Below are positions 19,472 through 40,964 of a DNA stretch of 60,943 nt, in pieces (the stretch's first letter is position 1; every line of letters starts with the position of its first letter). The DNA lies in contig JADGCV010000028.1 in the NCBI GenBank assembly GCA_015228815.1, positions 1 through 60,943 of the forward strand, in the 5' to 3' direction. The stretch comes from Magnetococcales bacterium (GTDB lineage Bacteria > Pseudomonadota > Magnetococcia > Magnetococcales > UBA8363). Under the pieces are notes generated by a model. The model was not told where the DNA came from. It worked only from the letters and a program-made list of their open reading frames with translations, and searched no databases. The translations under genes and the position numbers were made by a program.

Positions 19472-19594
19472 GGCAATCTCCCTGGGAACGGAGGTGGGAT
19501 GAAACCATCCGTCGGAAGGGTTGGCGGGCCGGGCGAAGGGAATGGCCGGTTTGCTTTCCGTCGGCGGGCCGTTCCCTTCGTCGATGAATGATTC

Positions 19595-19610
19595 CGCAAC
19601 AAGTCTGCCA
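19595..19610 (-). promoter_or_regulatory. sigma-54 promoter of nifB
   Basis: On the minus strand the bases read TGGCAG-ACTTG-TTGCG, keeping the invariant GG-N10-GC of RpoN promoters. It lies about 125 bases before the nifB start codon. Confidence 0.75.
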
Positions 19611-19682
19611 ATGGTTATTGTATTGATATTGTTGTATTTTATTTGATATTTTCTTGATGCTTCCCGTCCAATGGATCGGTTT

Positions 19683-19698
19683 TGTCGTCTTTGCGACA
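19683..19698. promoter_or_regulatory. NifA upstream activator site for nifB
   Basis: A perfect TGT-N10-ACA element (TGTCGTCTTTGCGACA) about 75-90 bases upstream of the -24 element. This is the usual position for NifA binding before DNA looping to sigma-54 polymerase. It is just beyond the 3' end of nifA. Confidence 0.75.
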
Positions 19699-19705
19699 CA
19701 AGGAT

Positions 19706-21295
19706 TCAGATGCGCCGCATGGGAATGTCGAGGGTTCGGATGCGATAGGCGATTTGCCTCGGGGTCATCCCGAGCAACCGTGCTGCCTTGGCTTGAACCC
19801 ATCCCGCCTGTTCCAGGGCGGCGAGGATTTGTTCGCGTTCATCGAGGTTGGGATCGTTGCAATCGATTGTCGCGCCGAACGCGGGGAGGGACATTGCCGC
19901 CTGTTCCTCCATGAATCCGGGAAATTGGATGAGGGTTGCGTCGATCGTCCCATCGACGCTCATGACCGCGGCCCGTTCCAGGCAATTTTCCAGTTCACGC
20001 ACGTTGCCGTGCCAGGGATTGTTGGCGAGCGCTTCCCGGGCGCCAGGGGTGATGTTCAGGGGGCGATGTTGCCTCTGGCTGGTCCGGGCGAGAAAATGAT
20101 CGGTCAGAAGGGGAATGTCCTCGGGGCGTTCGCGCAATGCCGGTACGTGGATTGGCAGGACAAACAGCCTGTAAAACAGATCGGAACGGAACGATCCGTC
20201 GCGAACCCGGGCAAACAGATCGACATTGGTGGCGGTGATGATGCGGACCTGGACACGAAGTGTCCGGACCCCACCGACACGTTCGAACTCTCCTTCCTGT
20301 AATACCCGCAGGAGTTTGCTTTGGAACGAGGCGGATATGTCGCCGATCTCATCCAGAAACAAGGTACCGCCATCGGCCAGCTCAAAACGGCCCGGTTTGG
20401 CATGGACCGCGCCGGTAAAGGCCCCTTTTTCGTGGCCGAACAGTTCCGATTCGAGGAGGGTATCGGAAAGGGCGGTGCAATTGACCTTGACGAATGGCCG
20501 GTTGGTTCCGCCATTGCCTGCCTGGTGAATGGCCTGGGCCACCAGTTCCTTTCCGGTTCCCGATTCTCCCTGAATCAATACCGGAGAGTCCCAACGCGCC
20601 GCCTGTTCGATCCGTTGAAAGATGGGTTCCATGCGATACGAACGGGAGCGGATCAGATGGCGCGGATCAAACCCGGTACCCCGGTTGGTACGGGAGGGTT
20701 GCGGGTGGGGATCGGTCGTTTCGATCCGTGGGACGGTCTCGGGGGAGGGAACCACGATTTCGCGGCTTCCTTGAAGTCGTTGGGCCAGAATGTTGGCGAC
20801 CGTTTCCAGGGTCAGGGTTTGCCAGTCCAGGAATTGCCGGTTTCCCAGATTGGGTTGTGCTGTCAGTACACCGCCGACATTCTGTTCACTGAGACGGATC
20901 GGGACGCCGATGAAGGGACGGTTCGGGTCCATCAATCCAAGACGGCGAACAAAACGTGGTTCTTCCAGGGGTTGTTCAACCACCATCGAATGGCCACTTT
21001 GAGCGATCAAGCCCACCATCCCTTCGCCGGAGTGGTAATAGACCTTCTTGAGTGGCAGCGGCCCGCCATCATGGGCGGCCTGGACCAGGAGTCCACCGGT
21101 CTTTCCATCCATCAGGGTGACCGCACCACGCCCAAGCCCCGCCTCCTGATCGAGAATTTCCAATAATGCGCGCATGGCAATGGCCAGGGTACCCGCTTCG
21201 GCGACGGCTTGGCTGACGAGAAAAATCGCTTTGAGCTGGCTGGCAATGACGGCGTTTCGGGTGAGGGAAAACGATGAGGCGGTGTGGAGATCCAT
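19706..21295 (-). CDS. nifA: NifA, sigma-54-dependent nif activator
   Basis: 529 residues: an N-terminal GAF domain (about 15-180), a linker, the sigma-54 AAA+ domain (Walker A GESGTGKE, sigma-54-contact loop GAFTGA, FLDEIGD) and a C-terminal Fis-type helix-turn-helix (QAKAARLLGMTPRQIAYRI). It activates nif promoters with RpoN. The start at 21295 is set by AGGAG seven bases upstream. The inter-domain segment lacks the CX4C pair typical of oxygen-sensitive rhizobial NifA, so redox control should come from elsewhere; no nifL is in the window. It lies between draT and nifB, all on the minus strand. Confidence 0.93.
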   Translation of the reverse strand: MDLHTASSFSLTRNAVIASQLKAIFLVSQAVAEAGTLAIAMRALLEILDQEAGLGRGAVTLMDGKTGGLLVQAAHDGGPLPLKKVYYHSGEGMVGLIAQSGHSMVVEQPLEEPRFVRRLGLMDPNRPFIGVPIRLSEQNVGGVLTAQPNLGNRQFLDWQTLTLETVANILAQRLQGSREIVVPSPETVPRIETTDPHPQPSRTNRGTGFDPRHLIRSRSYRMEPIFQRIEQAARWDSPVLIQGESGTGKELVAQAIHQAGNGGTNRPFVKVNCTALSDTLLESELFGHEKGAFTGAVHAKPGRFELADGGTLFLDEIGDISASFQSKLLRVLQEGEFERVGGVRTLRVQVRIITATNVDLFARVRDGSFRSDLFYRLFVLPIHVPALRERPEDIPLLTDHFLARTSQRQHRPLNITPGAREALANNPWHGNVRELENCLERAAVMSVDGTIDATLIQFPGFMEEQAAMSLPAFGATIDCNDPNLDEREQILAALEQAGWVQAKAARLLGMTPRQIAYRIRTLDIPMRRI

Positions 21296-21387
21296 GGCAA
21301 ACTCCTGAAATCGAGGGCGTGGCACGGCCAGAGGCGGTCGGTTGCTTTGAACCGGTCACACGGCTACAAAACCACCTGTTTCAGACC

Positions 21388-21402
21388 GCATGGATTATGC
21401 CA
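21388..21402 (-). promoter_or_regulatory. possible sigma-54 promoter of nifA
   Basis: The minus strand reads TGGCATAATCCATGC, which satisfies GG-N10-GC about 95 bases before the nifA start. The -12 part is weaker than for nifB and no TGT-N10-ACA was found nearby, so this is tentative. Confidence 0.4.
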
Positions 21403-21543
21403 AGCAAACAAGTTATTGATATAAAATTGAAATTTATCACTTTATCCACGAGTTTGCATTGCCGGAGGGCAAAAAATTGCTGATAACATCATCAAATTGA
21501 TTGAATATCAGGCAGCCCTGTTTTTCAATGTTTGCACGGTGGG

Positions 21544-22404
21544 TCAGGAGGACAGGCGGACCTCGTACAACCCGCCGATGACCATGACTTCTCCTTCACC
21601 CTTGAAGGCGCCGGGCAAAAGACCGTGGAAAAAGACAATCTTGGGGAGGGGTACCTGGACTTCCATGATGGTGTCGCCGAATTCGTCGGCCCGTTCGCGA
21701 AACTCGCTGAAGGAGTTGAGGTTGTTGAGCAGGACAACGGCGCGACGTTTGCCATGGCGCAGACGGATGTCCTGTTCTCCCAGACCATTGAACCCGCGAT
21801 AGAGGAGCCAGTGGCGATGGTCGGGATGGGTGCGGGCCAATTCGTACTGGCTGTAGGCGTAGAGGACATCGAGTTGTGATTCCAGGGCATTGGTGTTGTA
21901 GAGACCCGCGCTTTGCATTTTCAAGAATTTCTGGAACGGCTCCCCTTCGTAATCGTCGAGGGGACCGTTGTGGTGGCGGGGAAGCAGACCGAAGCGGCTG
22001 GCGACCCATCCTTTCAGGACTGCGGCCTCGCGTCCGTCGGGATTGAACATCCAGCCGCGAAGAATTCGCTGATAATCGATTTTGTGCCGGTCGGTGCGTC
22101 CGCCGGCGCTGAAGCCTGCCCGTTCCAGGTGGCGCATGTAGAAATGGACGGTCATGTAATCCATGAATTGAACCGCCCGCTCGGCATGGGTCGCGAGTGG
22201 CGCCAGCTTGTCGAACAGTTCGTGGTGCATCTCCCGCACGCCAACCAGTTCCAGAGGAATCGGGCTTTTTTGAAAGGCGAGTCCTCCCAGGGCGTTGGTT
22301 CCAAGATTGGTATGATTGAATGGGCTCTGGGCATTTTTTGGTAGTGCCAGCCGCTGTCCATCGGCAATGTCGTCTTCACGACCAAGTGGGTCCTTCTGTC
22401 GCAT
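21544..22404 (-). CDS. draT: dinitrogenase reductase ADP-ribosyltransferase DraT
   Basis: DraT transfers ADP-ribose from NAD to Arg101 of NifH in response to ammonium or energy loss, switching nitrogenase off. The 286-residue protein carries the family hallmarks LVGVREMHHELFDKL, MDYMTVHFYMRH, WLLYRGFNGLGEQD and LNNLNSFSEFRERADEFGD. GGGAGG lies directly before the ATG. The gene is divergent from nifH with a 146-base shared control region. Unlike the common draT-draG pair, draG here is about 4.3 kb away. Confidence 0.92.
   Translation of the reverse strand: MRQKDPLGREDDIADGQRLALPKNAQSPFNHTNLGTNALGGLAFQKSPIPLELVGVREMHHELFDKLAPLATHAERAVQFMDYMTVHFYMRHLERAGFSAGGRTDRHKIDYQRILRGWMFNPDGREAAVLKGWVASRFGLLPRHHNGPLDDYEGEPFQKFLKMQSAGLYNTNALESQLDVLYAYSQYELARTHPDHRHWLLYRGFNGLGEQDIRLRHGKRRAVVLLNNLNSFSEFRERADEFGDTIMEVQVPLPKIVFFHGLLPGAFKGEGEVMVIGGLYEVRLSS
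22368..22383. promoter_or_regulatory. near-consensus NifA site upstream of nifH
   Basis: TGTCGTCTTCACGACC is one base short of TGT-N10-ACA and shares the first six spacer bases with the perfect nifB site. It lies about 100 bases upstream of the nifH -24 element, inside the draT 5' coding end. Confidence 0.5.
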
Positions 22405-22469
22405 TTCCTCCCCCGTATTCCTGGAAAAATGGAGCGTCTAAATCGTTTTGTATCATAATCTTACAATAG

Positions 22470-23450
<981 letters not shown>

Positions 23451-23491
23451 AGGAATCTGTCGATACCAGCGGAAGTTCATGGAGAACCATC

Positions 23492-24922
23492 ATGTCGGCT
23501 TTGACCAAAGAGGAGGCCAGGGGCCTCATCCAGGAAGTTCTTGAACTCTATCCCGAGACTGCCAGGAAGGATCGCGCCCAGCACCTTGCGGTCAACGAAC
23601 AGGAGGGCCAGCAATCCAACTGCATTGTCTCCAATCGGAAATCGCTTCCGGGGGTGATGACGGCAAGGGGGTGCGCCTATGCCGGTTCCAAGGGGGTGGT
23701 CTGGGGTCCCATCAAGGATATGATTCATATTTCCCATGGTCCGGTGGGGTGTGGACAGTACTCCCGGGCGGGACGGCGCAATTATTATGTGGGTTATACC
23801 GGGGTCAACACGTTCGGGACGATGAATTTCACTTCCGACTTTCAGGAAAAGGACATCGTTTTCGGTGGCGACAAGAAACTGGCCAAAATGATCGATGAAA
23901 TCGATGCCCTCTTTCCATTGAACAAGGGGGTGACGGTGCAGTCGGAATGTCCGGTCGGCCTGATCGGCGACGACATCGAATCGGTGGCGCGAAAGAGTTC
24001 CGAATCTTTGGGCAAGCCCGTGGTTCCGGTCCGTTGCGAGGGATTTCGCGGGGTATCGCAATCGTTGGGGCATCATATTGCCAACGATACCATTCGCGAC
24101 TGGATTCTCGACAAACAGCCCAAGGTGGACGGTGGGCCTTATGATGTTGCCATCATCGGCGATTACAACATCGGTGGGGATGCCTGGTCGTCGCGTATTT
24201 TGTTGGAGGAGATGGGGTTGAACGTGGTGTCGCAGTGGTCCGGGGATGGAACCCTGGCGGAATTGCAGCGCTGTTCGAGCGTGCGCCTCAATCTGCTGCA
24301 CTGTTATCGTTCGATGAACTACATTTCGCGCCATATGGAGGCGAAATATGGCATCCCCTGGCTTGAATACAATTTTTTCGGACCGACGAAGATTGCCAAA
24401 TCGTTGCGGGAGATCGCGACCCATTTCGACGACACGATCAAGGAAGGGGCGGAGCGGGTGATCGCCAAATACACACCCATGATGGAGGCGATCATCGGCA
24501 GATACCGTCCGCGGTTGGCGGGAAAAAGGGTGATGCTTTATGTCGGCGGACTGCGTCCGCGGCATGTTGTCGGCGCCTATGAGGATCTGGGGATGGAGGT
24601 GGTGGGGACGGGCTACGAGTTCGGTCACAATGACGATTATGACCGGACGATGAAGGAAATGGGCGATGCGACCTTGTTGTATGACGATGTGACGGCGGTG
24701 GAGATGGAGCGGTTCGCCGAACGGTTGCGTCCCGATCTGATCGGGGCGGGGATCAAGGAAAAGTATGTGTTCCAGAAAATGGGGATTCCGTTTCGGCAGA
24801 TGCATTCCTGGGACTATTCCGGCCCGTATCACGGCTACGATGGATTTGCCATCTTTGCCCGGGACATGGACATGGCGGTGAACAGTCCTGTCTGGAGCCG
24901 GCTCAAGCCCCCCTGGAAATGA
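23492..24922 (+). CDS. nifD: nitrogenase MoFe protein alpha chain NifD
   Basis: 476 residues. P-cluster ligands are visible at Cys61 (RGCAYAG), Cys87 (GPVGCGQYS) and the Cys of [11 protein letters not shown]; the FeMo-cofactor site keeps the Cys and His regions further on ([26 protein letters not shown]). Catalyses N2 reduction with NifK. The ATG at 23492 has GGAG eight bases upstream. It follows nifH after 41 bases and precedes nifK after 58 bases containing a hairpin. Confidence 0.97.
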
Positions 24923-24938
24923 TCGCCTCCAGGCGATC
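24921..24938 (+). other. hairpin between nifD and nifK
   Basis: GATCGCC-TCCA-GGCGATC forms a perfect seven-pair stem with a four-base loop starting at the nifD stop codon. No T-run follows, so it is more likely an mRNA stability or processing element than a terminator. Confidence 0.5.
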
Positions 24939-24980
24939 GGTTCACCTCAAGCCACGCCACGGTGGCATCGGAAAGGAATC

Positions 24981-26561
24981 ATGACCATGAGTCAATCGGC
25001 AGAAAACATTCTTCCCTGTCATCCATTGTTTCGCGAACCGGAATATCGGGACATGTTGGCCGCCAAGGCGGCCCGGTTCGAAAACAAGGCCGACATGGAG
25101 AAACTGGAAGAAACATTTCAGTGGACCACCTCGCCCGAATACAAGGAACTCAATTTCAAGCGCGAGGCACTGACCATCAATCCGGCGAAGGCGTGTCAAC
25201 CGTTGGGTGCGGTTCTGTGCGCCCTGGGATTCAAGGATACCCTTCCCTATGTCCATGGATCGCAGGGGTGCGTCGCCTATTTTCGCACCTATTTCAACCG
25301 TCACTTCAAGGAACCCATCGCCTGCGTGTCCGATTCGATGACGGAGGATGCGGCGGTTTTCGGCGGGCATCCGAACATGGATGCCGGCCTCAAGAATGCC
25401 CATGCCCTTTACAAGCCCAACATCATCGCCGTATCCACGACCTGCATGGCCGAGGTGATCGGCGACGACCTCCATGCCTTCATCACCAACGCCAAGAAGA
25501 ATGGGCATATTCCCATGGAGGCGCATACTCCCTCCGCCCACACACCGAGCTTTGTCGGCAGTCATACCACCGGCTACGACAACATGATGGAAGGAATTCT
25601 GCGTTATTTCACCCTGAATGAGGTCCATGAGAAAAAGGTCGGGTCCAACGGAAAAATCAACATCATTCCCGGATTTGAGACCTACCTGGGCAATTACCGT
25701 TTGTTGCGTCGTTACATGGAGGAAATGGGGGTTGAATACACCCTGTTGTCGGATCCCTCGGAGGTCCTCGATACCCCTGCGGACGGTCATTATCGAATGT
25801 ATTCGGGGGGGACGACCGTTGAGGAAATCAAGGATGCCCCCAATGCCATCGATACCCTGATGGTTCAGCCGGTCTGCACCGGAACCAAGACCCGAAAGTT
25901 TATTCAGGATACCTGGGGCCAACCCGGGCAGGCGGTTCTTCCCCCCATGGGGCTGGAATGGACCGATGCCTTTCTGATGAAGGTGTCGGAGTTGACCGGA
26001 AAGGCGATCCCTCCGTCACTCGAATTGGAACGCGGGCGCCTGGTGGACATGATGGCCGATTCCCAGGCCTGGCTGCATGGACGCAAGGTGTCACTGTATG
26101 GTGATCCCGATTTTGTCATGGGAATGTGCAAGTTCATGATGGAGTTGGGGGTCGAGCCGTTGCATGTCCTGATTCACAACGCCAGCAAACAGGTTGGCAA
26201 GCGGTTGAAGAAGATCCTGGATGAAAGTCCGTTTGGAAAATCGGCGCAATTGCACATCGGCAGGGACCTGTGGCACCTGCGTTCCCTGGTATTCGAGGAA
26301 CGGCCCGATTTTCTGATCGGCAATTCCTATGGCAAGTTTATTCAGCGCGATACCCGGCACAAGGGAGAGGCGTTCGAGGTTCCTCTGGTGCGTCTTGGAT
26401 TTCCCATTTTCGACCGCCACCATCTGCACCGGAATACGACCCTGGGATATGAAGGGGGAATGTACATCCTGACCGAGGTGGTCAACACCCTGCTTGCGGA
26501 ACTGGATCGAAAAACCATGGGCTATGGCACGACCGACTACAACTTCGACCTGATTCGTTGA
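24981..26561 (+). CDS. nifK: nitrogenase MoFe protein beta chain NifK
   Basis: 526 residues. P-cluster Cys positions are recognisable in KACQPLGAVLCALGF, HGSQGCVAYFRTYFNRHF and STTCMAEVIGDD, with the Ser-rich CVSDSMTEDAAVFGG between. Partner of NifD in the heterotetramer. The ATG at 24981 has AAGGA just upstream; a second ATG two codons on is possible. It is followed by nifT after 15 bases. Confidence 0.97.
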   Translation: MTMSQSAENILPCHPLFREPEYRDMLAAKAARFENKADMEKLEETFQWTTSPEYKELNFKREALTINPAKACQPLGAVLCALGFKDTLPYVHGSQGCVAYFRTYFNRHFKEPIACVSDSMTEDAAVFGGHPNMDAGLKNAHALYKPNIIAVSTTCMAEVIGDDLHAFITNAKKNGHIPMEAHTPSAHTPSFVGSHTTGYDNMMEGILRYFTLNEVHEKKVGSNGKINIIPGFETYLGNYRLLRRYMEEMGVEYTLLSDPSEVLDTPADGHYRMYSGGTTVEEIKDAPNAIDTLMVQPVCTGTKTRKFIQDTWGQPGQAVLPPMGLEWTDAFLMKVSELTGKAIPPSLELERGRLVDMMADSQAWLHGRKVSLYGDPDFVMGMCKFMMELGVEPLHVLIHNASKQVGKRLKKILDESPFGKSAQLHIGRDLWHLRSLVFEERPDFLIGNSYGKFIQRDTRHKGEAFEVPLVRLGFPIFDRHHLHRNTTLGYEGGMYILTEVVNTLLAELDRKTMGYGTTDYNFDLIR

Positions 26562-26576
26562 TGAAAGGATGTTGCC

Positions 26577-26789
26577 ATGCCCAAAATCATGTTGCGTCGC
26601 GACATGGGAGGAAATCTGATCTGTTATGTGGCCAAGAAGGATCTTGAAGGAAAGGTGGTCGCACTGGAGCATGACGAGGAGCGACGTTGGGGTGGCCGGT
26701 TGCAGTTGGAAGATGGAACGGTGTTTCTGATCGATCCGTTGCCGGCGCGTCCCAGTCTGCCGCTCGAAATTCGGGTACGAAAGGGATAG
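26577..26789 (+). CDS. nifT: NifT/FixU small nif protein
   Basis: A 70-residue protein of the NifT/FixU family, recognised by the start MPKIMLRRDMGG, the core YVAKKDLEGKVVALEHD and RWGGRLQLEDG. The molecular role is not established; it is usually found right after nifK, as here, and is thought to be accessory to nitrogenase maturation. Confidence 0.9.
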   Translation: MPKIMLRRDMGGNLICYVAKKDLEGKVVALEHDEERRWGGRLQLEDGTVFLIDPLPARPSLPLEIRVRKG

Positions 26790-26842
26790 TGTCGATTCTG
26801 GGGGTGGTATTGGGCTGCCCCCCTTTTTTTTGGAGAATGGCG

Positions 26843-27262
26843 ATGGTTCAAGGTGATTTTCTGCCTCGGAGGGCGGGCAGCATTCGCGTGGCCTGCGCAT
26901 CGGACGGGGATGGGATGCTTGATGGCCACTTTGGTTCGTGCCAGCGTTTTATGATCCACGATGTTTCGGTGGCCCGGATTGTCACCCTGGAGGGGCGCTC
27001 TTGTGAAGGTCTCGGCACCGAAGGACGGACGACCTTGATTCGCGATTGCCAGGTGGTTTGCATGCAGGCCATCGGTGGTCCAGCCGCAGGGCGGGTGAGC
27101 CAGGCAGGGGTGATGCCGTTGAAGGTTTCCCGGGTCGTACCGATTTTGGAAATCCTTGAGCGGATTCAGGGGCGTCTGGCCGACGGTCCACCGCCATGGA
27201 TGGCCAAGGCCATGGCCGGGTCTGATCGTTTGTTCAATCCAGGGGGAGGAATTATGGCCTGA
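26843..27262 (+). CDS. NifX/NafY-like cofactor-binding protein
   Basis: 139 residues of the dinitrogenase iron-molybdenum cofactor-binding family: IRVACASDGDGMLDGHFGSCQRFMI is typical up to the His of HFGSC, and DCQVVCMQAIGGPAAGRV fits the second half. Members carry NifB-co or FeMo-co during assembly. The start at 26843 has GGAG seven bases upstream (an ATG six bases earlier is too close to it). A short hairpin (TGACC-AAC-GGTCA) followed by TCTTTCT overlaps the stop and might act as a weak terminator. Confidence 0.85.
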   Translation: MVQGDFLPRRAGSIRVACASDGDGMLDGHFGSCQRFMIHDVSVARIVTLEGRSCEGLGTEGRTTLIRDCQVVCMQAIGGPAAGRVSQAGVMPLKVSRVVPILEILERIQGRLADGPPPWMAKAMAGSDRLFNPGGGIMA

Positions 27263-30697: not shown

Positions 30698-31204
30698 TTA
30701 GCGTCGGACGCCATTCTTGAGCTGTTTGACTGCCGGTGTGGTGAAATCGAAACGTTGAAACCGACGTTGGGCCAGGGTGATCAGCCAGGGATTCAACCCG
30801 GCCCCGGGCCGCTGCGAAAGAATGCTGTCGAGAAGCCGTGCCTCGTTTCCGGGACCCGAAAGAAAACAGGCGAGAATCCAACCCACGCTCGGGCCTCGGG
30901 ACAAGCCGGAGTCGCAGTGAACCACCGTTGTTCCTGATCGCGGGCGCAAAATACGGGCAAATTCCTCCAGCTTCAAAATGTGAACCGAGGACGGTCCAGT
31001 CACTCCTTCCACGCTGCCGCTGTCATATCGGTCGAGAAACAGCAGGCGCAACACGGGGCAGGCCAGACTGGCGAGGATGGCCGGAGGTTCGGAGCCGGGA
31101 TCGCCAATGCTCACCACCCCGCGCAGGATTGTCGGATCCTCAAGGTGTTCAAGCCAGAGGATGGCCTCCTCCCGGCAAAAAAGGCGCACAGAAGGGTCGA
31201 TCAT
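30698..31204 (-). CDS. dual-specificity-type Cys phosphatase
   Basis: 168 residues with the Cys-phosphatase loop HCDSGLSR (Cys97, Arg103; HCX5R) in VVHCDSGLSRGPSVGWI. The general acid is likely in the preceding Asp-containing loop. The start at 31204 overlaps the kinase stop as ATGA; the longer open frame is a shadow of the kinase gene. It is the last gene of the nucleoside-type cluster. In the aminohexuronic nucleoside pathways a phosphate carried on intermediates is removed late, so a small-molecule phosphatase role is more likely here than protein tyrosine phosphatase. Confidence 0.82.
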   Translation of the reverse strand: MIDPSVRLFCREEAILWLEHLEDPTILRGVVSIGDPGSEPPAILASLACPVLRLLFLDRYDSGSVEGVTGPSSVHILKLEEFARILRPRSGTTVVHCDSGLSRGPSVGWILACFLSGPGNEARLLDSILSQRPGAGLNPWLITLAQRRFQRFDFTTPAVKQLKNGVRR

Positions 31205-31782
31205 CCTTGATTGGTTTCCAGTGTGGCGAGAAAATCGCGTGTTTCCCTGGCCCGTCGCAGTGCGATCATGCGTACTCCGGGGGTGGCGGCGATCCGGGCC
31301 AGCATTTCCGGGCGCGGGTGGTGGCGGAAGCGAAGTACCAGTGTCCAGAAACCAAGGTCCAGGCGTGGTCGGTGTCGATAGTCTGTCTGCCGGGCCATCG
31401 CCGCCGGCAGGCTGGAAGTGGCTCCGAACCAGCGCCGAATCCCGCGTGTCAGCACCCTCAAGGCGCACTGCCAGGGTGGCAGGTCGAGGAAGATCACGGT
31501 ATCGGCCCGTGACAGGCGGTTTGGGAAACAGCGACTGTAGTTGCCATCGATGATCCATTGTTCCAATGCCACGACCGCCGCCAATCGGGACAAAAATTCA
31601 GCCTCGGGCGGTCGGGTCCACTGGGCCTGCCAGTAGAGATCATCCAGATTGATGTGTGGCAGGCGCAGCGCCACCGCCAGGCGGCGGGCCAGGGTTGTCT
31701 TGCCACTGCCGGGTGAACCCACGACCAGGAGCCTCTGGGCGTTGTGGAGCGGTCTTGCCGTGACCTCAGGATGAGTGTTCAT
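31201..31782 (-). CDS. small P-loop kinase (adenylate-kinase-like)
   Basis: 193 residues with Walker A GSPGSGKTT at 22-30, a DLYW segment after the second strand (INLDDLYWQAQW) and WIIDGNY, typical of the small nucleotide/topology-modulation kinase group. Substrate unknown. It starts 17 bases inside the end of the epimerase-like gene, with AGGA seven bases upstream. Nikkomycin/polyoxin pathways use a kinase for a transient 2'-phosphate; this gene is a candidate for that step by context, not by demonstrated homology. Confidence 0.8.
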   Translation of the reverse strand: MNTHPEVTARPLHNAQRLLVVGSPGSGKTTLARRLAVALRLPHINLDDLYWQAQWTRPPEAEFLSRLAAVVALEQWIIDGNYSRCFPNRLSRADTVIFLDLPPWQCALRVLTRGIRRWFGATSSLPAAMARQTDYRHRPRLDLGFWTLVLRFRHHPRPEMLARIAATPGVRMIALRRARETRDFLATLETNQG

Positions 31783-32800
31783 GGCATTCCTTCCGGGGTG
31801 AAGAACAATAGGTGGACCAGTCGTGACGTTGTTGCATGATCCGGTTGTCGTAGGCGGGATTGGTTTCCGGCGCGACCAGCAGTCCCCTCTTGACCGCGTC
31901 GATCAGTCCATCGGCGGCATCGGTCAAACGTTCCCGCGGGTGAAAGCCGAGCCGACGTTCCACAAGACGCGATGATATACGGTAGGAACGTTCATCCGCC
32001 GTATCGGTGGCGGAAGTTTGAACCACTACGTCCGGACCCATGTGGGCTGCCAGGGTTTGGGCCGATTGCGCCAGGGTATGGTTGCCGTAGGCGGCATTGA
32101 AGATCGCCCCGGAAACGGTCTCCTCGGGCGCTTCGAGAACGCGCAGATACAGGGCGACAAGATCGGACAGGGACAGATGGGGTCGGTATCTCTGGCTCCG
32201 CTCCACCACGATGCGGCGTTTAAGATAACCTTCGATGACAAACCGGTTGAAGGTCAGATCCATCCTTTGCCGGGGTGCGTAACCGCACACCGTCGCCGCC
32301 CGCAGGCTTACGGGAGCGAAGCCCCGCCGTCTGGTTCCGAGGAGCAGATGGTCGCAGGATGCCTTGTGCCTGGCGTAATCGGTCAGGGGCATGGGGGGAT
32401 GGGTTTCGTCAACGAACGATTCACTGGAGTTTCCCGTGCCGTAGACACTGCACGAGGAGGCCTGAATCCAGCGGTCGATCCCCGCGGACAATGCCGCTTC
32501 CAGTGTGTTTTCGAACCCCTTGAGGTTGACGTCCCGGGCGATGGCGGGATCGAGGCGAAAATCGGGGTCATTGGACAGAAAAGCCAGGTGGATGACACGT
32601 TCCTGACCCCGCATCGCCTCCCGAAGGTGGGACGTATCCCGGATGTCGCCTTCGATGAGACGCAGACGCGGATGATCGGGCAGAGTGCTTGGCCCGAAGA
32701 TCAAGGCGTCGAGGACCGTTACGTCATGATTGGCGGCAAGCAGGGACGGGACCAGACGGCTGCCGATGTAGCCGCAGCCGCCGGTGACCAGCACCCGCAT
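31766..32800 (-). CDS. NAD-dependent epimerase/dehydratase (extended SDR)
   Basis: 344 residues. Rossmann motif TGGCGYIGS at the N-terminus, GDIRD after the fourth strand, and the catalytic SSCSVYG and YARHK (Tyr142, Lys146). It should oxidise or epimerise a sugar carbon. The start at 32800 shares one base with the stop of the oxygenase gene (TGATG). Extended SDRs are not part of the core aminohexuronic route as I know it, so it may make a tailoring change special to this product. Confidence 0.85.
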   Translation of the reverse strand: MRVLVTGGCGYIGSRLVPSLLAANHDVTVLDALIFGPSTLPDHPRLRLIEGDIRDTSHLREAMRGQERVIHLAFLSNDPDFRLDPAIARDVNLKGFENTLEAALSAGIDRWIQASSCSVYGTGNSSESFVDETHPPMPLTDYARHKASCDHLLLGTRRRGFAPVSLRAATVCGYAPRQRMDLTFNRFVIEGYLKRRIVVERSQRYRPHLSLSDLVALYLRVLEAPEETVSGAIFNAAYGNHTLAQSAQTLAAHMGPDVVVQTSATDTADERSYRISSRLVERRLGFHPRERLTDAADGLIDAVKRGLLVAPETNPAYDNRIMQQRHDWSTYCSSPRKECHEHSS

Positions 32801-33462
32801 CAACGTTGCTCCCGGACCGCCCCTTGGGGCCGCCAGGTTTCGATTTGCAGTGTGCGCCGCAACAGTGGCGCGGTGGCGGAGACGGGACTGACCCCGTGCC
32901 AGGAATCGTCGCTGGGAACCAGCAGCATGCCGTTGCCGGTGACGGGGGGCAATTCATGAAACGGTTCGAAATCATCACCGCGACGGCGGTAGAGCTGGAG
33001 CAATCCGCCCCATTCCGGTTCCCACCGATGTCCGAAATACAATACATTGGTCGCCGCTTTGGTCAGGTGGTCGGTATGGATGGAAATATCGTTGCCGGCG
33101 GAAAAGACAAAGAAGCCGACATCGATGGGGTAGTCGTCGATATTCTCACCGATTTTCTCGCCCACCACCCGGCGATATTCCGGTCCGGTCAATGCCTTGA
33201 TGAGCGCCTGCCAGGCGGGATCCAGGGTCGAGCAGGATTCGAGGGGCCGGTTTTTTTCCACTGCTTTGCGCACCAGGAAACTGTAGGTTTTGTCTCCCCC
33301 CTGTTCGCGTCGATGACGGACGAATCCCTCCTCGGGAAAATGGTCGGTCAGGTGTTGCGCCTTGACGGGGGGGATCGCCTCCTTCCACAGGGCGAAACGA
33401 AACGGCTCGGAGGCGAGCGGGGTTGTGCGAATCACATCGAGGTCAAGACAGTCTTGGGTCAT
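32800..33462 (-). CDS. Fe(II)/2-oxoglutarate oxygenase
   Basis: 220 residues with a facial-triad pattern: HTD (His129, Asp131) in ISIHTDHLTKAATNVLYF and distal His189 in SWHGVSPV, then Arg202 in LRRTLQIE for 2-oxoglutarate. The fold fits small prolyl-hydroxylase-like oxygenases. ATGA overlap with the SDR gene. Second of two such enzymes in the cluster, matching the two dioxygenases (NikI and NikM type) needed to shorten and oxidise octosyl acid in known pathways. Confidence 0.85.
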   Translation of the reverse strand: MTQDCLDLDVIRTTPLASEPFRFALWKEAIPPVKAQHLTDHFPEEGFVRHRREQGGDKTYSFLVRKAVEKNRPLESCSTLDPAWQALIKALTGPEYRRVVGEKIGENIDDYPIDVGFFVFSAGNDISIHTDHLTKAATNVLYFGHRWEPEWGGLLQLYRRRGDDFEPFHELPPVTGNGMLLVPSDDSWHGVSPVSATAPLLRRTLQIETWRPQGAVREQR

Positions 33463-34220
33463 GGCGAATTTTCCTGGTTGACGCCACCGGGTATTTCCGG
33501 ACAGCGGGGACGATGTTCGATGATGGGATCGACGCCTGGACCATGGGGTTTGCGGCGCATGATCTGGGTTTCGCGAAAAGGTTCTCTTTGGGCCATCGCC
33601 AGATCCCAGATGATGCGGGCGACCGCCACGGGATCGAGAAATTTGTGACGATCAGGGGCGGTTGCTTCCCATTTTTCCCAGAAGGTGGGAATGTTCAGTC
33701 CTCCCGGATTGATCAGGGTCACCCGGGAACCGGGACGGTCGCGCACCAGTTCCACGGCAAGGTTGCGGGTAAACGCGGTCTGCGCCGCCTTGAGTCCGCA
33801 GTACAGGGCCTCGTCCTCGCGCAACCGCCATGATGAAACCGAGCCGATGGTCACAAGATGGAACGGTTCGGCCTGGTGGCACAGAAAACGTCGCAGGAAT
33901 TGCACCGGACCCCGAAAATGCAGATCGACATGCAGGTCAATCTGGGAAGCATCGGTCTGTTGCAGCGGCGCCTTGAGAAAGGCGCCGGCGACCCAGAAGA
34001 AGAAGTCCACCGGGGTGTCGGGAAGCGGTGCCCGTCGCACCTGTTCCGGAGATTGAAGATCGATGACGTACAACTTCGCTCCGGGAGGCGTTTCGGTGAT
34101 GGCGTTCGGTTCGCCGGCGCTGCGACCGTAGATGATGGGCGACAGGTTTCGCCTGGCTCCTTCACGGGCCAATTCGAGTCCCAGCCCTTTGGTGGCTCCA
34201 AGCAGCAAGGCCGAGGTCAT
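33459..34220 (-). CDS. short-chain dehydrogenase/reductase
   Basis: 253 residues from the ATG at 34220, which makes ATGA with the enolpyruvyl transferase stop. The cofactor motif is GATKGLG (variant of TGXXXGXG), WVAGAF replaces NNAG, and the active-site pattern IGSVSSW ... YCGLK gives Ser, Tyr and Lys. Likely a classical SDR acting on a sugar or polyol hydroxyl of the nucleoside intermediate. The C-terminal ~50 residues are Pro/Arg-rich and less conserved in type. Confidence 0.8.
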   Translation of the reverse strand: MTSALLLGATKGLGLELAREGARRNLSPIIYGRSAGEPNAITETPPGAKLYVIDLQSPEQVRRAPLPDTPVDFFFWVAGAFLKAPLQQTDASQIDLHVDLHFRGPVQFLRRFLCHQAEPFHLVTIGSVSSWRLREDEALYCGLKAAQTAFTRNLAVELVRDRPGSRVTLINPGGLNIPTFWEKWEATAPDRHKFLDPVAVARIIWDLAMAQREPFRETQIMRRKPHGPGVDPIIEHRPRCPEIPGGVNQENSP

Positions 34221-35635
34221 GGTTGCGGACTCCATTTTATGTGTGGGTCTCGGGTTGTCCCTGGGACCGGGGAGGGGTACGTTGGCTGGGGCGACCCGTC
34301 CAGGTCGCAACGGGCGCCCATGCCGGCCAGAACGTCCAGAAGGTTGGCATAGCCTCGGTCCAGGTGATGAACGTTTTGTACCGTCGTGGTTCCTGGTGCG
34401 GTCAGCGCCGCCAACACCAGTACCGCGGCGGCCCGCAGATCACAGGCGACCACCGTCCGCTCTCCCTGGGTCAGGGAAGAGGGGGTGATGGTGATCCCCC
34501 CTTCCGTTGGATGAATGCATGCCCCAAGGCGGGACAACTCATGGGCGTAGGAGAAACGGGTTTTCCATACCGCCTCGGAAATTCGGGCGGGGCGGTCGCC
34601 ATCCAGCAGCATGAGGGCGAAAAACGGCTGGTGATCGGAATAGATGCCGACACTGGTGACTTCGATGTCCTGGGAGGCGAGACGAGGTGACGGGGTGACT
34701 TCCAGTAGATCCTTGCCCCAGTCGAGACCGACTCCCATGGCGTCGAGCAGGGCGATTTCCGCCGCCAATCCCTGACGCAGTCGCTTGACGGTCAGCCCGG
34801 TGAGGGTCAGTGACACCTTGCAGTGTTGCGACAGGGCGATGAAGGTGATCACTTCGCTCAGGCAGGTGACCACATGGTGGTGCAGGGCCGGTGGCGGCTG
34901 GGGAACTGTATCGGGGGGAATCAGGATCAAATCCCGGCCCTCGCGGCGCACGATGAAACCGGCCTGGTCGAGCAGGAGCAACAGTTCGGTGACATCGGGT
35001 TTGGGATAGGGATTGCGGATGCGGGTCGGGCCGGATCGGGTGCAGGCGGCGGCAAGGATGGCGGTCTTGGTGACCCCGGAAACCAACGGTCCGGTGAGCA
35101 GGTCGGGCCGTTCCGAAAAAGACATGCAATCGATGGTGCAAGCGGTGAATCCAGAGGTCTCGCCCTGGATCTCATGCCCTTCCTGACGGAAACGGGCACC
35201 GAATCGTTCCAGGACCGCGAGCATGTGATGCACCGGCCTCTGGGGGCCTGAACCACTGCCATCCAGGGGGCAGCCACCGCTCGGACCGATCCGGACGCGC
35301 TTGAATCGTCCCAGGAGTACCGGCAGAAAATAGAGGACGCCATGGACGCGCCGACTTGACGATTCGGGAATGTCGGACAGAAAAAAACCGCGTGTGTCCA
35401 GGGTCAGGGTACCATGATTCCAATGGGCGACGCCGTTACCCTGGCGGATGAGTTCACAGAGAACCTTCACGTCTTCGATATCGGGAACGTTGGTCAGCAC
35501 GACCTGTTGTTCCAGGGCGATGGCCAGGGCGATCAATCCGACCGTGGCGTGCTTGAAGCCGCCGAGGGCAACCGTTGCCGGATGCAGGGGGGCCGGGGTG
35601 ATTCGTGCATGTCGGGGAAGGGGGGGATGGGTCAT
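34217..35635 (-). CDS. MurA/NikO-like enolpyruvyl transferase
   Basis: 472 residues of the EPSP synthase/MurA superfamily. Lys28 in GGFKHAT matches the MurA active-site Lys22, and Cys122 in GPSGGCPL matches the MurA loop Cys115; the tail GYANLLDVLAGMGA is also MurA-like. It would transfer enolpyruvate from PEP. In nikkomycin (NikO) and malayamycin (MalO) pathways the acceptor is the 3'-OH of UMP or pseudouridine monophosphate, and neighbours here are the other genes of that pathway. A cell-wall MurA role is unlikely in this context. ATGA overlap with the aminotransferase gene sets the start; the longer open frame upstream is antisense-like noise over that gene. Confidence 0.85.
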   Translation of the reverse strand: MTHPPLPRHARITPAPLHPATVALGGFKHATVGLIALAIALEQQVVLTNVPDIEDVKVLCELIRQGNGVAHWNHGTLTLDTRGFFLSDIPESSSRRVHGVLYFLPVLLGRFKRVRIGPSGGCPLDGSGSGPQRPVHHMLAVLERFGARFRQEGHEIQGETSGFTACTIDCMSFSERPDLLTGPLVSGVTKTAILAAACTRSGPTRIRNPYPKPDVTELLLLLDQAGFIVRREGRDLILIPPDTVPQPPPALHHHVVTCLSEVITFIALSQHCKVSLTLTGLTVKRLRQGLAAEIALLDAMGVGLDWGKDLLEVTPSPRLASQDIEVTSVGIYSDHQPFFALMLLDGDRPARISEAVWKTRFSYAHELSRLGACIHPTEGGITITPSSLTQGERTVVACDLRAAAVLVLAALTAPGTTTVQNVHHLDRGYANLLDVLAGMGARCDLDGSPQPTYPSPVPGTTRDPHIKWSPQP

Positions 35636-36792
35636 GAACCATCCCCTTCCTGGGAGGAAAAGGATTCCATTTCCGACAGCACCGTGGTCATGAGGGTCGG
35701 GTCGCCGATCGTCATTCTCAGGCAGCTTCGAAGTCCGTGGGGACCATCCTCGAACCGTTTGACCTGTATTTTTCGGGTTCGCAGATGGTCGGCCAACAGG
35801 GAGGCGGTGCCGGACTGGCCGGTGTCCATCAACAGGAAGTTGGTTTCCGAGGGTGGAATGCGCCAGGAGGGAAACAGGTGCGACACCCTCCGAGCGACAA
35901 CCTTGCGGGTAGCCTCGATCCGGTGATGGAAATTGGCGACATCGCTGGCATTGTCGAAACAGAAGGCGAGGTAGCCCGCGGCCATGGCGTTGACCGTATG
36001 GACGCCATACCACCGATGGAGATAAGCGGCGAGGGCGGCGCTGGTGATGACCAGGCCCAGCCGCAATCCCGCCATGCCGCAGTTCTTGGAGAAGCTGCGC
36101 AGAATGACGACGCCGGAATAACGATGCAGCAGGGGCAGATGCGGCACCGACGCGAAGGGGGCATAGGCCTCGTCGATGAGCAGCAGATGGTTGCCCTGGG
36201 CGCAGAGATCGCATAGCCGTTGCATTTCGGCCAGAGGGATTCGGGTACCGGTGATGCCATTGGGATTGGTCACCACGACAAGCGCCGGCGGCGAGGTCGT
36301 CAGTGGCTCCCGGGCCAGATCGACGATCGATTCGCCCCAGAGATCGGTCGGATGATTCAGCGGGGTCACGGCCACTCCGGCCAGGGCGGCGTAATGATTA
36401 TAGTTGGAATAGTTCGGGGTTTGCAGAATCAGACGACCGATGGAACGGCCCAGAAGGCCAAGCACCATGCGAATGGCGCTGTCCGAACCGGCGTCCATCA
36501 CCAGGGACGTATGGGGAACGTCATAGAAACGGGCGGTCGTGCGAATCAATCCTGGCCAGTTGGGATACCGGGTGACGTTGGTCTCGGTCGCCTGTTCGAG
36601 GTAACGACGAAAGAGGGCGCGTGTTTCGGGGAGGTCGGATTCATTGCTGGAAAGGTTGTGGACGTGCCGGTAATCGGCTTTTTCCCGGACGTTGAGTTTC
36701 ATGACTGCCGGATCGAGGAATGGCAGGGTATCGAACAGGCAGGGGCGGGTCGGGTCGATGGGCGTGGCGGAATCCACGGTCTGGTCAGCCAT
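35632..36792 (-). CDS. HisC-like PLP aminotransferase
   Basis: 386 residues of the fold-type I class I/II family closest to histidinol-phosphate aminotransferase. NPNGITG holds the PLP-binding Asn, LLIDEAYAPF the pyridine-binding Asp207, SFSKNCGMAGLRLGL the Schiff-base Lys236 and phosphate-binding Arg. In the nikkomycin pathway NikK, also HisC-like, aminates the keto acid made from octosyl acid to give the amino acid centre of aminohexuronic acid; the same step is proposed here. Overlaps the radical SAM gene end by eight bases. Confidence 0.87.
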   Translation of the reverse strand: MADQTVDSATPIDPTRPCLFDTLPFLDPAVMKLNVREKADYRHVHNLSSNESDLPETRALFRRYLEQATETNVTRYPNWPGLIRTTARFYDVPHTSLVMDAGSDSAIRMVLGLLGRSIGRLILQTPNYSNYNHYAALAGVAVTPLNHPTDLWGESIVDLAREPLTTSPPALVVVTNPNGITGTRIPLAEMQRLCDLCAQGNHLLLIDEAYAPFASVPHLPLLHRYSGVVILRSFSKNCGMAGLRLGLVITSAALAAYLHRWYGVHTVNAMAAGYLAFCFDNASDVANFHHRIEATRKVVARRVSHLFPSWRIPPSETNFLLMDTGQSGTASLLADHLRTRKIQVKRFEDGPHGLRSCLRMTIGDPTLMTTVLSEMESFSSQEGDGS

Positions 36793-38113
36793 GGGTCGAG
36801 TCCCGACGCTGGGGGATCATTTCCATCACGGCGGTTGGTTTGCTGTCGCGTTCGAAGAACATGCGGTAGTAGGCGTGGCGCTCCTGGAGATCCGGATGGT
36901 CGGAAACGAACAGATGGCGGTTGAAGCGGGCAATTGTTCGGTGGTCCATTCCGGGGGCGAGCAGTTGGTAGGGGGTATGGATTGAAGTTCGCAATCGCGC
37001 TCCTGCCGCGGACACCGCCTCAACGGTAGCCCGGACTCCGGCCAGGGTATCTCCGGGCAGTCCCAGGATGATGAAACAGTTGAGTTCGATGCCCGCACTG
37101 CGGCACCAGTATGCCAGGGAGTCGAACTGGTCCCTGTATGTGTGTTTGAGCCTTGGCAGGCCCTGCATGGGGACCGAATCCAGTGTTTCGATGCCGACGC
37201 TCAGGCGAACGCAGCCGGCCTGGCCCATCAGCGCTACCAGTTCCCGGTCCAGAAGGTGCGGCACGGTCACGCATTTCCACGGCCATGGAGACCCGAGGGC
37301 GATCATTTCCTGACACAAATCACGCACCCATTGGGCCTTGAGCGTAAAGGTCGGGGCGTAGAAACTGACATATTCGAACGGTTTTTTCCGGAAGGACGAA
37401 CGTATGTAATCCAGGGTGCGTTCGACATCGAGACGCCGTTCCGTCGTCCCCTGGAGGGGCGGGACATCGCAGAAGGCGCAGCCGACCGGGCATCCTCGGG
37501 CCACGGGGACCACGAGTTCCAGTCGCTCGGGGATGCCACAAAACTTGTGGTGGTCATCGAGATACAGGCGGCTGTAGGCCTCATGGGGGATTTCATCGAC
37601 CTCGGGCAGGATCCACGCTTCGGGCGGCAGGGGGGTGGATTTGCCTGCCTGGGAAAAGGAACCGTCGTCACGACGCACCGCCACACCAGCCACATAAGGT
37701 TTCTTTTCGGATGTGGCCAGATGATCCAGGTAGGATGCCACTGCGGCTTCCGGGTCTCCCGAGCCGTGGACGGCATCCAGATCCAGGGTGAAGAACAGGT
37801 CGGGAAGGCGGCAACTCAGCCGCCCGGCGGTCAGAATGCGTGCCTGGGGGGACAAGGCCCGGATGTAGGCAATGGTGCGCTCGAAGGTATCGGTGGCATC
37901 GAAATCATTGATGAGCACCACCAGATCGAATCCCTGGATCAATATCTCGCCGAGCGCCCGCCAGGTCATGTTGAGGGCGGCTCCGTCGAGGCAGGTGACC
38001 TGTGTATCCCGTGACCGGGCGCGCAGATAGGCCCCGATCATGAAGACCGACAAATGGTGTCCGGCGTTGAAATAGCTCGGTATGTAGGGAGGGATGAGAC
38101 ACAAAATGTTCAT
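36785..38113 (-). CDS. NikJ/PolH-like radical SAM enzyme with B12-type N-domain
   Basis: 442 residues. The first ~140 have the layout of a cobalamin-binding-like domain (MNILCLIPPYIPSYF), and the SAM cluster motif is CX3CX2C at Cys208, Cys212, Cys215 (CPVGCAFC). Later GIETLD and NCFIILGLPGD are radical SAM features. In nikkomycin/polyoxin synthesis NikJ/PolH closes the 3'-enolpyruvyl nucleotide onto C5' to form the bicyclic octosyl acid phosphate. The start at 38113 overlaps the phosphatase stop as ATGA. Homology to NikJ is judged by context and layout, not by alignment. Confidence 0.83.
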   Translation of the reverse strand: MNILCLIPPYIPSYFNAGHHLSVFMIGAYLRARSRDTQVTCLDGAALNMTWRALGEILIQGFDLVVLINDFDATDTFERTIAYIRALSPQARILTAGRLSCRLPDLFFTLDLDAVHGSGDPEAAVASYLDHLATSEKKPYVAGVAVRRDDGSFSQAGKSTPLPPEAWILPEVDEIPHEAYSRLYLDDHHKFCGIPERLELVVPVARGCPVGCAFCDVPPLQGTTERRLDVERTLDYIRSSFRKKPFEYVSFYAPTFTLKAQWVRDLCQEMIALGSPWPWKCVTVPHLLDRELVALMGQAGCVRLSVGIETLDSVPMQGLPRLKHTYRDQFDSLAYWCRSAGIELNCFIILGLPGDTLAGVRATVEAVSAAGARLRTSIHTPYQLLAPGMDHRTIARFNRHLFVSDHPDLQERHAYYRMFFERDSKPTAVMEMIPQRRDSTHG

Positions 38114-38943
38114 GTCGGTCCCTGCGTCATGGTTGAACGGCCATAATGAAGGCGGATGGCTTGGAGATGATGTTCCTGGACGCCACATTGCTTAAGCCAA
38201 GCCCCGATTCCCCCGAAGGCCTCCTCGATCATTTCAAGGGTTTGGCGCATGGTTTCTCCACGGGCATCCAGTCGGACGGCGTATTCCTCCGGGGTTTCAC
38301 CCTTTCGTTCCCACTTGTCGCGGAAATGATGAAGATGGGGCAGCAGGTGGGCGCCGCTTTGTTCATGGTCCCGGGCGATGACCGGGGTGTTGGCCCCCAG
38401 GACGTGGAGCAACAGCATGGCGACCAGGCTGGTGCGGTCCTTTCCGGCATGGCAGCCAAAAAGAAGCGGCGCCCCCTTCAAGGCCGCAAGCCAGGCGAAC
38501 AGATCGGACACATGGGCGGCCATATCGTCAAGGATGGAAAAATAATACCGGGCATAGGCTTTGTTGCCTGGACGGCGTCCGGTGATGGCCGAGGCGTCAC
38601 GGGCCATCACTGGCCAATTGAGAATGGCGATGCCGACCTGTTCCAGGGATAAGGCCCTGCCGTAGCGGCGCAGTTCGGATTCGCCACGCAAATCCAGAAA
38701 GAAGCGAATCCCCCCATGATCCCGCAACCGTCGGGCCTGGTCAGGTCGGAGAATCGTTACATCCCCGGTGCGGAACAGGCCATGGCAAACGTTCTCACCC
38801 TCCGCCAGTGGACGAAGATTGAGTCCGATGCCATGACCGTTCCATGGCGTATCGTGACCTGGCTCGGCGTCGAAGGCATGGCCATTCCCGAGGGATCGAC
38901 CGGGACAGTCCGTCGTGGCGCCAGGATTCCGAAGGTTATTCAA
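38110..38943 (-). CDS. NikL-like Cys phosphatase
   Basis: 277 residues with loop CHAGKDR (Cys164, Arg170) in LFGCHAGKDRTSLV and the substrate-recognition segment FFLDLRGESEL, as in the Y_phosphatase3 family. The TTG at 38943 is chosen: GGAGG lies six bases upstream and the preceding oxygenase stop is at 38961. Known aminohexuronic nucleoside clusters have a phosphatase of this kind (NikL, PolJ) that removes phosphate from nucleotide intermediates. Second gene after the promoter region at 39.65 kb. Confidence 0.83.
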   Translation of the reverse strand: MNNLRNPGATTDCPGRSLGNGHAFDAEPGHDTPWNGHGIGLNLRPLAEGENVCHGLFRTGDVTILRPDQARRLRDHGGIRFFLDLRGESELRRYGRALSLEQVGIAILNWPVMARDASAITGRRPGNKAYARYYFSILDDMAAHVSDLFAWLAALKGAPLLFGCHAGKDRTSLVAMLLLHVLGANTPVIARDHEQSGAHLLPHLHHFRDKWERKGETPEEYAVRLDARGETMRQTLEMIEEAFGGIGAWLKQCGVQEHHLQAIRLHYGRSTMTQGPT

Positions 38944-39737: not shown

Positions 39738-40835
39738 TCAACCAAGAAAAGATGCATTTCTGCCATCATTGACCCGCATGTGGATTCCGAAACGGAGGAG
39801 AAGTTGACGCATCAGCATGGTGGCATATCCGCCTGTAGGCAACATGAAGGAGACCGGGAGTGCCACCCTGCCTGGATGCAGGGCATCGTCCATGGGAGGA
39901 TCGGCAAAGATGTTGGTAGTGATCACGGCTGGCCTGCGGCGGCGGATGGGAGGTGTGTTTTCCTTCGGTTTCCATTGATGGCATTCGTATTCCAGCACCG
40001 GTTCCACGGCACATTGAGACAGATCGCTGGGGAGCCATAGATCGAACAAGTCTCCGAGTCGAAACGGCGCACCTGCGGACGATGTGGCGTGGAACCGTAA
40101 CGAAGCCAAGGTGTTCCAGCGCATGCTGTTGAAGGCATCGACGTAAAAGCCAAGAATTTTAGGATGATTTTTTTCCAGCCATTCCAGAAGGTCGTTACCC
40201 TTGGGGATGATGTGTTCCCCGGCTTCTTCGATCAACCGTTGCGCCCTTTGCCGATCCCGCTGGACGAGGCTTTCGCCGATGAGGTGGTTGGTGGGGGGAT
40301 GGCCGGGGAGTCCAAAGCGTTGCAGATCGTAGTAGTTCGCCATGGAGAAATGAATGTTGCTTTTCAGGGAATCCCATATCTTCCCGGCAGTGGCGACGTT
40401 CAAATTACGTACAACGATTCGGAAGCTGTTGCCGAACAGGTTGCGTGGCCGGATCGGATGATGAGAATGACCTTCGATGGAATGCAGACGAAGAAAGGAG
40501 CCGGAAGTCCCTGGTTGGAAACATGTGTTGAACGCTTCGAGATCCTTGGTGGTCAGGCGCCGACGGACGGAACAGAGTTGACGGGTAATACCGTCCTCGT
40601 CCTTGAGACCGGCGCTGCCGACCTCCTGAACCGGAAGATCGAAAAAGGCGCCAATCGTTTTTTCCGCATCGAAGGTGGTCCATCCTCCCTTGTCGAGCCA
40701 GACATGGGTATATTCCCCCTCGTTGGTGGTCCAGGGTGAGATCAAGGGGACCTCGACCACGCGAAAGTCGGAATGAATGCACTTGAGGATTGCCGGCGGT
40801 TCCACCGTGATTCGATTGCCTTCCGGAATTGCCAT
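39738..40835 (-). CDS. TruD-like pseudouridine synthase
   Basis: 365 residues of the TruD family: DFRVVEVP, catalytic Asp near residue 79 in AGLKDEDGITRQ, NLFGNSFRIVVRNL and NYYDLQRFG are the recognisable family positions. The start at 40835 has AAGGA six bases upstream. TruD modifies tRNA, but in the malayamycin cluster a TruD-like enzyme (MalD) supplies pseudouridine monophosphate as the C-nucleoside precursor. Being placed directly upstream of NikO/NikJ/NikK-like genes argues for that role. The sequence departs from housekeeping TruD around the active site (EDGI for RRAV), which fits specialisation. Confidence 0.85.
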   Translation of the reverse strand: MAIPEGNRITVEPPAILKCIHSDFRVVEVPLISPWTTNEGEYTHVWLDKGGWTTFDAEKTIGAFFDLPVQEVGSAGLKDEDGITRQLCSVRRRLTTKDLEAFNTCFQPGTSGSFLRLHSIEGHSHHPIRPRNLFGNSFRIVVRNLNVATAGKIWDSLKSNIHFSMANYYDLQRFGLPGHPPTNHLIGESLVQRDRQRAQRLIEEAGEHIIPKGNDLLEWLEKNHPKILGFYVDAFNSMRWNTLASLRFHATSSAGAPFRLGDLFDLWLPSDLSQCAVEPVLEYECHQWKPKENTPPIRRRRPAVITTNIFADPPMDDALHPGRVALPVSFMLPTGGYATMLMRQLLLRFGIHMRVNDGRNASFLG

Positions 40836-40964
40836 GATCATTCCTTGAGGATTTGAGGGATTGTATGAACCCGCGGTCCAAGGACACCATTGGGGATTCT
40901 TGCGAAATTAAAAGAACTATGAATTCTAAATGTTATGATAATATAGCGGATTGAAAAGGACAAA

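Follow-up and report, generated by a model that had tools for sequence, protein, structure and literature searches.

We identified a co-directional unit of eleven genes on the minus strand, running from 40841 to 30698, within a Magnetococcales contig (JADGCV010000028.1), of which the whole stretch analysed, 60,943 nucleotides, is called the window below (Table 1). The unit is headed by a TruD-like gene, as the earlier note had proposed for a nucleoside cluster at this position. The interval given there, 39738-40835, lies on a real gene, which is read on the minus strand from 40841 to 39738; the plus strand across 39738-40841 is broken by stops. A gap of 132 bases follows the truD gene, and the remaining genes are 17 or fewer bases apart, mostly overlapping or closely spaced. 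Diagnostic motifs were found in the 10 of the 11 proteins that were searched for them, all but the enolpyruvyltransferase (EPT).

Table 1. Genes of the eleven-gene unit, in order of transcription.
Product	Position	Strand	Features
TruD-like protein, 367 aa, putative C-nucleoside (pseudouridine nucleotide) synthase	39738..40841	-	First gene of unit
2OG-Fe(II) oxygenase 1, 214 aa	38961..39605	-	Pfam PF13661/PF13640; HxD...H; 86-87% identity in DCbin4
PTP-family phosphatase, putative PolJ/MalL-type role	38110..38943	-	Pfam PF13350, 2e-31; CHAGKDR loop; TTG start uncertain
Radical SAM enzyme, putative PolH/MalJ-type role	36785..38188	-	Pfam PF04055; CPVGCAFC
HisC-like PLP aminotransferase	35632..36792	-	Pfam PF00155, 2.7e-36; SFSK
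Enolpyruvyltransferase (EPT), EPSP/MurA superfamily, 472 aa, putative NikO/PolA/MalO-type role	34217..35635	-	Pfam PF00275, 8.7e-32
SDR oxidoreductase	33459..34235	-	Pfam PF00106; YxxxK
2OG-Fe(II) oxygenase 2	32800..33462	-	Pfam PF13661; HxD...H
NAD-dependent epimerase/dehydratase	31766..32803	-	Pfam PF01370, 1.2e-36
P-loop kinase-like protein, putative 2'-phosphorylating role	31201..31782	-	Pfam AAA_18, 4.1e-7; Walker A GSPGSGKT
Small DSP/PTP-like protein, putative start	30698..31207	-	Last gene of unit; CDSGLSR loop; Pfam DSP-PTPase E=0.045, below cut-off

The same genes were found in the same order in a second Magnetococcales species, DCbin4, at about 70-87% identity and spread over two contigs. 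The TruD-like protein itself is 72% identical between the two, and the small DSP/PTP-like frame is likewise conserved at 72%. Upstream of truD the loci diverge: the window has a response-regulator GGDEF-EAL gene there, DCbin4 a different long gene. GC content is 59.8% within the cluster and about 55.5% on either side of it. A promoter and terminator scan of the region gave counts close to the shuffled expectation. The window also carries nitrogenase genes (18122-27262), which lie left of the nucleoside cluster and encode NifH, two Oxidored_nitro subunits, FeMo-Co proteins, DRAT and a sigma-54 activator.

The TruD-like protein matches the Pfam TruD family (PF01142) over residues 19-202 (E=5.4e-36), covering only positions 18-194 of the 412 in the profile. 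As the earlier note had reported, it contains an AGLKD motif with the catalytic Asp (D81), a QRFG motif (174-177) and, directly after the catalytic Asp, the residues EDGI (82-85); these motifs and the cluster position are far above chance. At the EDGI position E. coli TruD has KHAV, and the other canonical TruDs have R or K at the first position after the catalytic Asp. Residues K20, D81, N138 and F140 align with K21, D80, N129 and F131 of E. coli TruD, which we take to be its catalytic residues. An AlphaFold2 model built from 37 sequences (pLDDT 89, pTM 0.87) matched PUS7, TruD and trypanosomatid mitoribosome-assembly chains in the PDB at E<=0.001, so that the TruD fold is kept, with its C-terminal part included. 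The protein thus has the TruD fold, as modelled, and the catalytic Lys/Asp/Asn/Phe set in common with the E. coli enzyme, but is only 24% identical to it, scores below the family cut-off, is acidic rather than basic after the catalytic Asp, and has a C-terminal half that is not recognised by Pfam. Net charge gave no signal of lost RNA binding: the canonical mean is +2.7, that of the related acidic clade described below +5.2, and the window protein, at +1, is close enough to canonical TruD that such a loss is not supported.

We investigated the distribution of related proteins by running an alignment of TruD-like proteins against a single genome for each species, which yielded 67 loci; a scan of genome contigs with a single sequence had recovered no relative. 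No relatives were identified in phage records or viral contigs. In a tree of 43 proteins, in which locus L057 of Streptomyces malaysiensis subsp. samsunensis stands for the malayamycin-producer species, canonical bacterial TruDs were set apart at 100/100, and a group that we term the acidic clade was united at 96/91. Directly after the catalytic Asp, 48 of 50 members of the acidic clade have D or E, and all 16 canonical proteins have R or K, a count that is partly biased since the search patterns in part favoured this outcome. Hits obtained without such patterns agree, being acidic in G242, G295, Gloeothece and Mesorhizobium, and basic in G307, G347 and Aquabacterium.

The TruD-like supplier of the malayamycin pathway was reportedly named MalD by Hong et al. 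in their 2019 malayamycin paper. The name MalD is given to a carbamoyltransferase in PMC8724604. The grouping with MalD that the earlier note envisaged was recovered at the level of the clade, which unites the window protein with the S. malaysiensis and pseudouridimycin-type enzymes; it did not extend to the MalD/PumJ subclade, and forcing the window protein into this mal/pum group was rejected (AU test, p=0.00097). The window and DCbin4 proteins are instead sister (100/99) to a group from Patescibacteria and Gloeothece. Trees of the radical SAM enzyme and the EPT did not tie the window firmly to any one cluster: the EPT groups with Pantoea and Legionella (98), and the radical SAM placement lacks support for a single cluster.

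One account of the gene would be a housekeeping tRNA pseudouridine-13 synthase that lies beside the cluster by chance. The fold and catalytic residues are conserved, and the search that the earlier note had proposed for a second, canonical truD found none, the window gene being the sole PF01142 gene in a genome that is 99.2% complete. A sole truD that groups with tRNA-modifying TruD was the outcome the earlier note had set against its own proposal; the gene is indeed the only truD, but is separated from those enzymes at 100/100. Its score against TIGR00094 is 103.1 bits, under the cut-off of 172.2 bits, as compared to 357.2 for E. coli TruD. Three congeners that are 97, 97 and 99% complete have no TruD at all, and within the genus only DCbin4 (G026) has one besides the genome studied here. 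The radical SAM gene of the cluster was identified in 2 of the 48 genomes of the class, the same two that have this type of TruD. Other families of Magnetococcales do have truD, of the canonical type, and the encoded protein is matched by the Pfam model in both of its halves. The two types additionally co-occur in single Xenorhabdus genomes: canonical truD is present in 30 of 30, a second, one-part TruD match in 6, and in the loci examined the cluster-type TruD adjoins the same set of radical SAM, EPT and aminotransferase genes. Because near-complete congeners lack TruD altogether, and the gene is present only together with the cluster, it can be the sole truD without being a housekeeping one. 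On the TIGR00094 score, the tree, the TruD-free congeners and the co-occurrence with the cluster we rejected a housekeeping role, which we consider highly improbable.

We next compared the unit with characterised nucleoside clusters. It contains the core of the octosyl-type (pol/nik/mal) pathways, namely an EPT, a radical SAM enzyme, a phosphatase, 2OG oxygenases and an aminotransferase. In the polyoxin pathway the EPT, radical SAM and phosphatase part produces octosyl acid from 3'-enolpyruvyl-UMP (PMC5365060). In malayamycin biosynthesis the EPT MalO accepts almost exclusively pseudouridine 5'-phosphate, and its step precedes those of the radical SAM enzyme, phosphatase, 2OG oxygenase and aminotransferase (PMC8724604). 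The window cluster shares with the mal cluster (L057) the TruD-like protein, EPT, radical SAM enzyme (46%), PTP phosphatase, 2OG oxygenases, aminotransferase and SDR (43%), but its TruD, at 31% identity, is not a member of the mal/pum subclade, and the window cluster has in addition the epimerase and a second small phosphatase-like gene. The pathway thus appears to be of the mal type, but its C-nucleoside enzyme belongs to a different branch of the clade. Among the TruD-like clusters fetched, equivalents of the radical SAM enzyme are 45-50% identical (S. malaysiensis subsp. samsunensis included), those of the EPT, which falls below the MurA model cut-offs, 32-40%, and those of the P-loop protein 33-47%; the SDR has an equivalent in L057 alone, and the epimerase in none. 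From this identity and its context, the P-loop protein may be a 2'-phosphorylating kinase. The pum/sap clusters have in PumJ a member of the same acidic clade and share a C-nucleoside pathway with a P-loop kinase, PumH, of the PumH/PolQ2/MalE family tied to cryptic 2'-phosphorylation (PMC7955054). Unlike the window cluster, pum has no octosyl module of EPT and radical SAM enzyme, and the window has no counterpart of its PumN-like amidinotransferase.

The module shared with polyoxin and nikkomycin (PolA/NikO, PolH/NikJ, PolJ/NikL), which comprises the EPT, a CxxxCxxC radical SAM enzyme, the phosphatase, two 2OG oxygenases and the aminotransferase, raises the alternative that the cluster makes an N-nucleoside of that type, with the TruD-like gene incidental or decayed, as all of these are equally the polyoxin core, and polyoxin and nikkomycin use UMP (PMC5365060). 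The window differs from these clusters in its TruD-like first gene, which is intact and, along with the other genes of the unit, conserved in DCbin4, itself at 72% identity. An acidic TruD was present in every fetched locus with this type of radical SAM enzyme, a result that is biased as the loci were found through TruD; a plasmid search by radical SAM enzyme alone returned the same TruD-bearing loci. The SDR common to the window and the S. malaysiensis cluster also speaks against an N-nucleoside product, which we regard as improbable.

From the fold, catalytic residues, clade, cluster content and co-occurrence described above, we infer the reactions, substrates and product as follows. The TruD-like enzyme would act on a uridine nucleotide, isomerising its N-glycosidic bond to a C-glycosidic one and giving pseudouridine 5'-phosphate, on whose O3' the EPT would load enolpyruvate. 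The radical SAM enzyme would then close the octosyl bicycle, the phosphatase or phosphatases and the kinase would handle the 5'- and cryptic 2'-phosphates, and the two 2OG oxygenases and the aminotransferase, with the SDR and epimerase, would oxidise and aminate the sugar. We estimate a probability of about 80% that the window gene is a dedicated C-nucleoside synthase derived from TruD, feeding pseudouridine 5'-phosphate to a pathway with an octosyl-type C-nucleoside product. The specialised supply of pseudouridine monophosphate suggested by the earlier note is therefore supported, at the level of sequence, by clade and cluster, although the enzyme does not belong to the MalD/PumJ subclade. 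The predicted product would reasonably belong to the octosyl-type C-nucleosides, in oxidised and aminated form, and be related to the antifungal malayamycin. Malayamycin A requires carbamoyltransferase and O-methyltransferase tailoring genes (PMC8724604). Neither was detected among the 11 genes by Pfam, and a carbamoyltransferase query had no match in the window; malayamycin A itself is thus an unlikely product.

Several observations count against this C-nucleoside reading. The enzyme lies outside the MalD/PumJ subclade, its closest relatives, from Patescibacteria, are encoded outside antibiotic-type clusters, its charge carries no sign of lost RNA binding, and neither a transporter nor a resistance gene was found among the 11 genes. 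The enzyme could alternatively make pseudouridine in RNA, tRNA or other, with RNA turnover feeding the pathway, so that it would be a dedicated supplier and not a free-nucleotide enzyme. The full TruD fold with its C-terminal part, as modelled, and the canonical-like charge are consistent with this, as is the pseudouridimycin producer lacking pumJ, which still yields product at a reduced level (PMC7955054, Table 1). The acidic pair beside the catalytic Asp (D or E in 48 of 50, against R or K in 16 of 16, with the partial search bias stated above) and the score below the tRNA-TruD cut-off argue in the other direction and are not decisive; we judge the RNA route to be rather unlikely. PsuG (PF04227), another known enzymatic source of pseudouridine, is absent from the genome, which encodes four RluA-family RNA synthases. 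With one TruD and no PsuG, this genome is a clean source for addressing whether the substrate is a free uridine nucleotide or RNA.

The dedicated C-nucleoside synthase favoured here would extend malayamycin-type C-nucleoside biosynthesis to an unexpected order, the magnetotactic Magnetococcales, and the branch of the clade to which this enzyme belongs is unexpected too. In the portions of the literature retrieved, few papers pair Magnetococcales with biosynthetic gene clusters, each mentioning either term once or a few times. Earlier work had already recorded homologues of PumJ in microbes unrelated to one another (reported in PMC7955054), so that the wide distribution is not new as such. The acidic residue after the catalytic Asp, together with failure of the TruD cut-off, provides a sequence criterion for C-nucleoside-type TruDs, which picks out proteins annotated as 'tRNA pseudouridine(13) synthase', for example in plasmid records. 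It is conceivable, if somewhat doubtful, that the acidic clade as a whole consists of widespread free-nucleotide pseudouridine synthases that are not confined to antibiotic clusters. This would imply a pseudouridine-nucleotide metabolism in Patescibacteria, and that the Magnetococcales octosyl cluster took its C-nucleoside step from the Patescibacteria branch, and not from mal/pum.

We additionally identified distinct neighbourhoods of acidic TruDs in other lineages. In Patescibacteria the TruD-like gene, of the sister group, forms a conserved cassette with genes for CyaB/CYTH-like (13 loci), zinc-ribbon, PyrD/PreA-like Fe-S (12 loci) and guanylate-kinase-like (11 loci) proteins, as at L029:9989-13668, with equivalents in L028, L031-L036, L040 and L066, and partial or rearranged forms in L030, L034, L037-L039 and L047; no EPT or radical SAM partners adjoin the TruD-like genes at these loci. 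A malayamycin-type cluster of Legionella and a locus of an uncultured member of the Rhodobacteraceae likewise have relatives of the PyrD/PreA-like protein next to acidic TruDs (L060:4278-5537, L063:12260 onward and L047:11678-12811; L060 and L063 are 46% identical), which hints at pyrimidine-ring redox chemistry on C-nucleosides. On a Gloeothece verrucosa plasmid (L024:10000-19790) an acidic TruD lies beside sulfotransferase, histidine phosphatase, glycosyltransferase and ABC-2 transporter genes, a different and undescribed context without EPT or radical SAM enzyme. Acidic TruD relatives in Vibrio (L068-L070) and G242 (L005) have none of the other genes of the window cluster in the flanks fetched, and perhaps have another role.

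Finally, a dozen loci besides that of S. malaysiensis subsp. samsunensis have the same core gene set as the window. Malayamycin-type neighbourhoods were identified in S. malaysiensis subsp. samsunensis (L057), Longimycelium, Sinosporangium and Amycolatopsis, and in Xenorhabdus, Pantoea dispersa, Legionella MAGs and a Mesorhizobium plasmid. The last of these, on Mesorhizobium loti plasmid p_2 (L025:11679-22417), is annotated as truD and hypothetical genes, has its EPT in two overlapping ORFs (possibly a frameshift), and is adjoined by carbamoyltransferase-like and DUF6071 genes. The malayamycin-type clusters of Xenorhabdus and G295 (L022, L049-L052, L065) contain an amidinotransferase that is 44-47% identical to those of pseudouridimycin-type Streptomyces loci (L046, L048, L071), and are, by their predicted gene content, a mal/pum hybrid set.
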